A DNA stretch of 64,000 bases, taken from an uncultured Pelagibacteraceae bacterium (GTDB taxonomy: Bacteria; Pseudomonadota; Alphaproteobacteria; Pelagibacterales; Pelagibacteraceae). The stretch is from the NCBI GenBank assembly GCA_902526645.1, contig CABZLS010000005.1, positions 1 through 64,000 on the forward strand. The letters are read 5' to 3'. Position 1 is the stretch's first letter; every line of letters begins with the position of its first letter. The notes below the pieces were generated by a model that had not been told where the DNA came from, made no database searches, and saw only the letters and a program-made list of their open reading frames with translations. Shown one piece after another: positions 4,691 to 6,661 of the stretch. A program made the translations under genes and the position numbers.

Positions 4691-4934
4691 TTTTTAATCT
4701 TTTCTTAAATAAAGAAATACCATTTTTAATTTTATAAGTATACGACTCTTCGAAACTTTCTAATTGCCAACCAGTTAATCTTCTTTTTATAATTTCGATA
4801 TTTTCTTTTTTCCAATCATCGGTTGTATCTTCAAGTTTCCAAATTCTTTTTTCTTCATTACTTCTGCCACATCCGTAGCAATATCCTGTGCTAGGATCAG
4901 TTTTACAGATACTTATACAGGGTGAAATAATCAT
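4683..4934 (-). CDS. DUF1289 domain protein
   Basis: An 83-residue protein with the DUF1289 cysteine signature. SPCISICKTDPSTGYCYGCG, at about residues 4-23, has four cysteines that probably bind a metal, followed by RSNEEKRIWKLED. Proteins of this family are short and mostly uncharacterised. It is the first gene of a three-gene minus-strand unit with a small membrane protein and a secreted protein. A TATAAT element lies six bases before its ATG, giving an apparently leaderless start. Confidence 0.85.
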   Translation of the reverse strand: MIISPCISICKTDPSTGYCYGCGRSNEEKRIWKLEDTTDDWKKENIEIIKRRLTGWQLESFEESYTYKIKNGISLFKKRLKNE

Positions 4935-4970
4935 ATTTTTATTATAATGGAAAATTAATATAATTTACAA
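4934..4970 (-). promoter_or_regulatory. Promoter of the DUF1289 unit, leaderless geometry
   Basis: On the minus strand, TTGTAA (4970-4965), an 18-base spacer and a perfect TATAAT (4946-4941) are followed after six bases by the ATG at 4934. The predicted transcription start coincides with the start codon. The promoter is back-to-back with that of tRNA-Leu. Confidence 0.6.
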
Positions 4971-4980
4971 TAATTGTAGT

Positions 4981-5021
4981 TGGACAAATAAGTTCAATAA
5001 TAATATAAGACACTAAATTTT
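4981..5021 (+). promoter_or_regulatory. tRNA-Leu promoter
   Basis: TGGACA (4981-4986), a 17-base spacer and TATAAG (5004-5009) form a near-consensus sigma-70 promoter about 20 bases before the tRNA. The 18 bases from the -10 box onward (TATAAG, ACACTA, AATTTT) match the same region of the tRNA-Val promoter at 16 of 18 positions. Confidence 0.75.
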
Positions 5022-5028
5022 TTGAGTT

Positions 5029-5112
5029 GGGCGAGTGGTGGAACGGTAGACACGCCAGTCTTAGGAACTGGTCTCGCAAGAGGTGAAGGTTCAAGTCCTT
5101 TCTCGCCTACCA
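5029..5112 (+). tRNA. tRNA-Leu (anticodon TAG)
   Basis: This is a class II tRNA of 84 nt with the CCA end encoded. The acceptor GGGCGAG pairs with CTCGCCT, and the discriminator is A5109. The anticodon loop CTTAGGA gives anticodon TAG. An extended variable arm (TCTCGCAAGAGG) and the T-arm GGTTCAAGTCC are present. It reads CUN leucine codons. The last bases run straight into the inverted-repeat element at 5113-5202. Confidence 0.95.
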
Positions 5113-5202
5113 GAAATGGTAGTCGCGTTAGTCTTATAAAAAAACGCGTCTACCAATTCCTGAGTTGTCAAATTAGGTTAGACCAACGCGGCTACCATTT
5201 CC
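5113..5202 (+). repeat. tRNA-Leu-like inverted and direct repeat cluster
   Basis: A left arm (5113-5134) pairs with a right arm (5180-5201) over 22 positions, with 20 Watson-Crick pairs, one GU and one mismatch. A middle copy (5143-5160) repeats 16 of 18 bases of 5185-5202 in direct orientation, 42 bases apart, and can also pair with the left arm. Read on the minus strand, the middle copy gives GGAATTGGTAGACGCG, the conserved D-arm region of bacterial leucine tRNAs. On the plus strand the left arm shares GGTAG, seven bases, AGTCTTA with the adjacent tRNA-Leu. It lies immediately after tRNA-Leu and 26 bases before tig. Its role is unknown. Confidence 0.85.
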
Positions 5203-5227
5203 AATTCAGATTAAATAAGAACAAAAC

Positions 5228-6661
5228 ATGAAAGTAACAATAGAAAATAAAAAAGGTTTAAACAAAGATGTAAAAGTTTTTGTCGATAAGAAGACAATTA
5301 ATACTTACATGGATCAAAAATATGAAGAAATTAAAGGAACTATTAATCTTAAAGGTTTTAGACCAGGTAAAGTACCCAGAGAAGTTTTAAAAAGACAATT
5401 TGGTAAAGCAGTTTTTGGGGAAGTTTTAGATAAAGTTTTAAAAGAAACATCAACTAAAGCTTTGGAGGAAAATAAAATAAAACCAGCCGGACAACCTAAA
5501 TTAGATCTTAAAACTTATGGAGAAGATAAAGATTTAGAGTACGTATTGTCTGTAACTGAACTTCCAAAAGTAGAACTAAAATCTATTGAAAATATAAAGT
5601 TCGATGAATACTCAGTTAAGATAGATCAAGCCGAGACTGAAAAGAGAATTAAAGATATTGCAAAAAATCAACCTAATTTTAAAGAGGCTGGAAAAGATAT
5701 TAAAGCAAAAGAAGGAGATCTTGTTGTTTTTGATTACAATGCAACAATTGATGATAAACCATTCAAAGGAGGAGAAGGAAAAAATACACAATTAACACTC
5801 GGTAAAGATTTATTTTTAAAAGGATTTGATAAACAATTGATTGGGGTAAAAAAAGGTGATGAAAAAATTGTTGAGGCGACTCTTCCCGAAAATTTTCCTG
5901 AAAAAGAATTAATTAACAAAAAAGCAAAGTTTAAATGTTTTGTTTTAGCTGTAAAAAACCCTGATGAAGTTAAAATTGATGATCAATTCGCAAAAAATCT
6001 TGGAGCAAAAGATTTAAATGATCTTAAATCTTTAATAACAAAACAAATTAATGATGAATATAAAAATTCTTTAGATCGATTAACTAAAAATCAAATATTA
6101 AAAGAAATTGAAAAATTTAAAATAAGTGAAATACCAGAGAATTTACTTGAAGAAGAAGTTAAAATTCTTTCTCAAGGGATGTCAGAGGAAGATGTCAAAA
6201 AGAGTAAAAACAATTTTGAAGAAATAGCAAAAAAAAGAATTAAAGTTGGTTTGATATTGAACGAATTTGGTGAGAAAAATCAAATAAAAGTTACTGAACA
6301 AGAACTTCAAATTGAAGTTCAAAAACAAATACAAATGATGCCAGGTCAAGAAAAAATGGTGATGGATTTTTATAAAAAGAATCCTAATGCACTAGCTAGT
6401 TTAAGGGGTACTGTATACGAGGAGAAAATTTTAAATGCAATTAAACAAAAAGGTAAATCTTCTAAAAAAGAAATTTCCAAAGATGAAGCTGAAAAAATTT
6501 TAAAACAATCTCAAAAACAACAACTAGATCAAGAGCTTAAAGATCAAAGAAAATCAGATAAAAAGGTCGAAACAAAAAAAACATCTATAAACAAAAATAA
6601 GCCAAAAAAGACAAAAAATAAATCAGTAACTATAAAGACAAAAAAAGTTAGCAAAAAGTAA
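5228..6661 (+). CDS. tig: Trigger factor (ribosome-associated chaperone/peptidyl-prolyl isomerase)
   Basis: A 477-residue trigger factor, the chaperone that binds ribosomal protein L23 at the tunnel exit and shields nascent chains. The ribosome-binding signature [17 protein letters not shown] is at about residues 40-56. The FKBP-type domain follows at about 150-235 ([32 protein letters not shown]), then the helical C-terminal arms. About 65 residues at the C-terminus form an extra lysine-rich tail ([16 protein letters not shown]-like), making it longer than the roughly 430 residues of E. coli. It precedes clpP, clpX and lon, the usual alphaproteobacterial order. The region before it contains the tRNA-like repeat cluster. 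Confidence 0.95.

Follow-up and report, generated by a model that had tools for sequence, protein, structure and literature searches.

A phage-type tRNA-Leu(UAG) and a probable attachment-site scar upstream of the trigger factor gene in SAR11 bacteria

In the 64,000-nt stretch analyzed here (the window; positions 1–64,000 of contig CABZLS010000005.1, assembly GCA_902526645.1, from an uncultured SAR11 bacterium of the Pelagibacteraceae), a gene for tRNA-Leu(UAG) is followed by the trigger factor gene tig. The 115-nt spacer between them holds three partial copies of nucleotides 12–36 of tRNA-Leu, i.e., the D arm and the 5' strand of the anticodon stem, one in forward (L) and two in reversed orientation (M and R; Table 1). 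Two of the copies make up an inverted repeat of 22 positions (5113–5134 with 5180–5201; 91% complementary, arms 45 nt apart), and the copy at 5143–5160 is a direct repeat of 5185–5202 (16/18 matches). A first-pass annotation of the window had described this arrangement, correctly in its coordinates, and had judged so long a stem unlikely to arise by chance. Indeed, the best of 500 dinucleotide shuffles of the spacer reached 17 pairs versus the 20 observed, and the RNA fold of the hairpin has z = -6.1, none of 200 shuffles being as stable. The L–M and L–R stems are both possible, so that the left arm can, as had been noted, pair with either the middle or the right copy. The motif GGAATTGGTAGACGCG (at most three mismatches) occurs three times in the window, always in the spacer, with 0.08 occurrences expected.

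Table 1. Features of the tRNA-Leu(UAG)–tig locus (positions in the window)
Feature	Position	Strand	Basis
Host promoter region of tRNA-Leu (TTGGACA ... TAATAT)	4979..5028	+	Alignment; TTGGACA/ATATAA conserved upstream in all relatives
Approximate horizontally shared tract: promoter end, phage-type tRNA, scar, first ~12 tig codons	5001..5265	+	Alignment with AH-321-G15
tRNA-Leu(UAG), phage-type	5029..5112	+	ARAGORN, identities, blastn match to HTVC011P
Copy L, host-type tRNA-Leu nt 12–36 copied in part, forward; left arm	5113..5136	+	Inverted-repeat search, alignment
Copy M, host-type tRNA-Leu copied in part, reversed; minus-strand GGAATTGGTAGACGCG identical to host type; alternative partner of L	5143..5160	-	Alignment, motif search
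Copy R, host-type tRNA-Leu copied in part, reversed; forms the right arm of the 22-position inverted repeat	5180..5202	-	Inverted-repeat and motif search
Foreign tig leader (AATTCAGATTAAATAAGAACAAAAC), common to the two nearest hairpin loci	5203..5227	+	Leader comparison
tig (trigger factor), gene flanking pelagiphage prophages at this bacterial attachment site (attB)	5228..6661	+	Open reading frame call, locus survey, PMC6811365

The proposed derivation of the copies from a tRNA-Leu stands, but their source is not the neighboring gene. Against the tRNA-Leu(TAG) of the host type found in SAR11, the spacer gives an alignment score of 17.0 (the best of 2000 shuffles gave 13); on the minus strand, 17 of 17 consecutive bases are identical to host-type positions 12–28, and copy L matches positions 13–36 in 20 of 24 cases. 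The best alignment with the resident tRNA scores only 9.5, and hence the copies come from a host-type tRNA-Leu. The resident gene, which the annotation had called intact, proved to be itself a foreign, phage-type part of the locus.

This tRNA is 96.5% identical to those of the integrase-bearing pelagiphage contigs L049 and L275 and 91.8% identical to that of Pelagibacter phage HTVC011P, versus at most 84.7% for host-type SAR11 genes. A blastn search with the region likewise returned HTVC011P and HTVC041P, in which the tRNA-like stretch lies just downstream of the integrase region. A search of the window's own assembly (90% complete) for host-type tRNA-Leu yielded no full-length second copy; besides the resident gene, it matched only 27 bases at another locus. 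The phage-type gene is the only tRNA-Leu(UAG) found there. That the host-type tRNA-Leu appears to have been replaced by a phage-type copy in this SAR11 genome is well supported.

The site is a known target of pelagiphages: HTVC011P integrates at tRNA-Leu(TAG) and brings its own tRNA-Leu, with the trigger factor gene flanking the prophage (PMC6811365). The prophages found at this position in four relatives (G079, G087, G212, and G028) agree with that statement. In each of them the host tRNA is split in the anticodon loop. The left junction (attL) consists of the host promoter and the 5' half of the tRNA followed by phage P'-arm sequence, and the right junction (attR) of the integrase, the phage tRNA, the P arm, the core, the 3' half of the host tRNA, and tig. 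The tyrosine integrase domain PF00589 was matched in the G079 and G212 prophages. Phage integrases with matching attachment cores, recommended as a check in the first-pass annotation, were also found in viral contigs, where related integrases are followed by a complete tRNA-Leu(tag), the P arm, the core GTCTTAGGAAC, and the P' arm. The tRNA-Leu(tag) is present in 19 of 21 integrase-bearing viral contigs and in all four prophages. No prophage lies between the tRNA and tig in the window, and a PF00589 search of its assembly (G000) gave no match.

Several observations on these elements may be added. In the phage attachment site (attP) of many pelagiphages (L251, L252, L265, L268, L038, and L264), the core is flanked by an inverted repeat of 10–15 bp with 28–46 nt between the arms; the arms differ in sequence among phage lineages and are parted by integration, and several cases are no better than shuffles. 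The contig L259 (IMGVR_UViG_3300007074_000995), classified as viral, is a prophage-host junction with the phage P arm, the core, the 3' half of the host tRNA, and the tig start. Most pelagiphage tRNAs retain the GTCTTAGGAAC core, unlike the tRNA of the G028 prophage (L040), whose anticodon-arm core is altered relative to its own attP, which may serve to avoid self-integration. G000 has not even a Xer-type PF00589 match, whereas each of five relatives has at least one; this may reflect incompleteness of the assembly.

The region upstream of tig was compared in 165 non-redundant loci of the same genus. The normal site, seen in 156 of them, has a host-type tRNA (GGCGGAATTGGTAGACGCGTYGGTCTTAGG and close variants) with the tig start 6–16 nt after the CCA end. 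Prophages occupy four loci. Four more have a long spacer without a prophage, namely the window (115 nt), AG-447-K09 (115 nt), AH-321-G15 (G407; 113 nt), and AG-913-G03 (G133; 164 nt), and all four carry a phage-type tRNA. The remaining locus, G163, has a phage-type tRNA but a normal 12-nt spacer. For the association of the phage-type tRNA with the long spacer, Fisher p = 2e-7 (not corrected for phylogeny).

The locus G163 (L107) shows that a tRNA swap without a scar is possible. Located behind the host promoter is a tRNA-Leu with 92% identity to the one in the G028 prophage, apparently a scarless replacement, and the phage core is altered in its anticodon stem (ACGCCTTAGGAGCGT).

The same distribution bears on the direction of transfer. 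Conceivably, a host lineage evolved this tRNA-Leu by plain divergence and phages took it up, the spacer being an unrelated tRNA-derived repeat; tRNA genes are short, phages do acquire host tRNAs, and G163 combines the unusual tRNA with a normal spacer. We regard this as quite improbable, since the GACACG-type (GACACGCC-type) tRNA is found in nearly all pelagiphage contigs read but in only 4 of 161 non-lysogen host loci, each of which nests among host-type neighbors in the tig tree, and all four of which carry the foreign spacer.

A pattern search for the hairpin in all GTDB r220 contigs retrieved four single-amplified genomes of Pelagibacteraceae, AH-321-G15, AG-905-M18 (G212), AG-447-K09, and AG-913-G03, in each case upstream of tig. 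Together with the window, the hairpin is thus found in five genomes, and about 97% of the surveyed loci lack it. In all five, tig has a foreign leader in place of the normal one of 6–16 nt; the leader of AG-913-G03 also ends in GAACAAA, like that of the window. Pattern searches of viral contigs found no hairpin.

Two of the sister loci retain more of the presumed element. In G133 and in an older layer of G212, the sequence after the CCA end of the tRNA begins with a T run and GTTGCAC, continues with arm sites (TTGTATCC or TCGTATCA, repeated) and TTGTGCAA, and leads into the hairpin and tig. The elements before the hairpin are of the same kind, order, and orientation as in the P' arm that the G079, G087, and G212 prophages have at attL. 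G133 and G212 thereby resemble elements whose attL has a P' arm right after the CCA of the tRNA, whereas the window differs in having no P' arm. AG-447-K09 and AH-321-G15 lack it as well, and in all three loci the hairpin is longer and includes an additional reversed copy. The suggestion of the annotation that the repeats are remains of recombination at a phage-used tRNA attachment site is supported by the P' arm beside the hairpin in these two loci, by the phage-type tRNA, and by the identity of the site as attB of tRNA-carrying pelagiphages. No pelagiphage for tRNA-Leu(UAG) that would leave a P' arm right after CCA was found. The G133 spacer gave only short chance or tRNA matches to phages, and a search of viral contigs for the G212 prophage integrase returned no candidates. 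Weak P'-arm-like matches in G031, G358, G148, G078, G398, G171, and G116 were rejected as AT-rich chance matches without a tRNA.

The G212 locus (AG-905-M18, L034) is doubly occupied. A prophage sits in the anticodon loop of the tRNA, and the older P' arm and hairpin lie beyond the host 3' half; the resident prophage has arm sites matching the older ones (TCGTATCA). Here the hairpin accompanies a host-type tRNA, which was broken by the later prophage.

This locus also speaks to a possible role of the tract as a decoy or immunity site, in which an attL-like tRNA with a P' arm, or the core-like hairpin copies, would hinder pelagiphage integration and spread under selection. A short tract is common to several clades, and core-like pieces and a P' arm adjoin the tRNA in G133 and G212. 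Nevertheless, G212 harbors a prophage in the same tRNA despite its P' arm and hairpin, and the copies in the window lack a complete core, making such a role very improbable.

The first-pass annotation had also considered a tRNA-like processing or termination hairpin and a switch controlling tig. Either the hairpin itself or the alternative between L–M and L–R would then regulate tig expression or the processing of a tRNA–tig transcript, as might be expected from the very stable fold, the two mutually exclusive stems, and the conservation of the spacer, which differs between the window and AG-447-K09 at 6 of 114 positions, versus 9 of 31 fourfold sites of tig. A search for a terminator-like site (a GC-rich stem with a T run) in 4900–5300 found none, and folding of the tRNA does not depend on the hairpin. 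In an Rfam search, only the tRNA exceeded the gathering score, with nothing credible at 5113–5227. Covariation, proposed as a check in the annotation, did not exceed that of shuffles in either alternative stem, a test of low power with only four sequences. Furthermore, a comparison of the window with AG-447-K09 shows changes in copy R that the paired part of copy L does not match, and 156 relatives manage without the hairpin. As no covariation beyond shuffles, no terminator, and no phage copy of the hairpin were found, a switch is unsupported; a regulatory leader of this kind seems rather unlikely, and the hairpin probably has no dedicated function.

The hairpin loci take dispersed positions in a tig tree based on the first 294 nt, with normal-site loci as their neighbors. 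AH-321-G15 matches the window between the promoter end and roughly the twelfth codon of tig; on either side, upstream of the promoter and over most of tig, its sequence groups with its own clade. The promoter part from about position 5001 (AATATAAGACACTAAATTTTTTGAGTT) is common to the window, AG-447-K09, and AH-321-G15 and absent from their tig neighbors. Most likely, a tract of about 0.25 kb comprising the tRNA and the scar has moved between SAR11 clades by short-tract homologous recombination. The low divergence of the spacer fits recent exchange, although selection could explain it too. An old ancestral tract that was lost repeatedly is a possible alternative but needs many events. We consider it unlikely that the tract is a 0.25-kb tRNA-replacement cassette, made of the phage tRNA-Leu and the hairpin leader, that spreads by homologous recombination through a benefit to the host. 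If so, the benefit might be, e.g., altered susceptibility to phages attacking this tRNA or the uncoupling of tig from the tRNA transcript.

We conclude that the locus probably represents a captured phage tRNA with an attachment-site scar, spread as a tract by homologous recombination; its identity as a phage-derived tRNA plus a putative scar is well supported. The integration site of pelagiphages (HTVC011P and relatives) is the anticodon loop of the host tRNA-Leu(UAG), directly upstream of tig. Because the shared core GTCTTAGGAAC is short, integration breaks the host tRNA, and for that reason each phage carries a complete tRNA-Leu(UAG) that takes over, the arrangement of tRNA-dependent lysogeny. 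In the scenario we infer, an ancestral element would have integrated at the tRNA and left a P' arm. The prophage would then have been lost in an ancestor, with the phage-type tRNA staying and coming to lie downstream of the host promoter. The host tRNA, by then redundant, would have decayed, its 5' half (nt 12–36) persisting as three broken, partly inverted copies in a foreign spacer. The inverted copies may have arisen by (snapback) template switching at the anticodon stem and a shared CTACCA motif. The anticodon stem forms an inverted repeat by nature, and CTACCA, the complement of the D loop, is also the 3' end of the tRNA, so that template switching would be a simple route to both the palindrome and the loss of the 3' half. 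Finally, homologous recombination would have exchanged the tract, with the conserved promoter and the tig start as the regions of homology.

Some points weigh against this account. No intermediate was found for the proposed order of events, the P' arm itself is absent from the window, and the hairpin is known from five genomes only. Moreover, selection could underlie the low divergence of the spacer, and the hairpin and the tRNA swap need not be one event, as G212 pairs the hairpin with a host-type tRNA.

Complete phages or prophages with the same attB, the same flanking tig, and the same phage-borne tRNA-Leu are HTVC011P, HTVC025P, and uv-Fonsiphage-EPL (PMC6811365), whereas the window retains only the tRNA and the scar. 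tRNA-dependent lysogeny was described for actinobacteriophages by Guerrero-Bustamante and Hatfull (2024; PMC10865867), who asked how common it is beyond that group. Pelagiphages at tRNA-Leu(UAG) fit its anatomy: the tyrosine integrase lies next to attP, the short common core lies in a host tRNA that is not rebuilt (attL/attR of the prophages), and the phage encodes a tRNA of the same isotype. Unlike the described cases, the window is no lysogen: it has lost the prophage, its phage-type tRNA is preceded by a host promoter, and scar DNA is left. The anatomy of tRNA-dependent lysogeny is thereby seen in one of the most abundant bacterial groups of the ocean, and it may have a lasting consequence: after prophage loss, a virus tRNA can remain the only tRNA-Leu(UAG) gene of the cell, beside the debris of its own. 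A recognizable scar of this kind may allow past lysogeny to be counted in genomes where few prophages are found.
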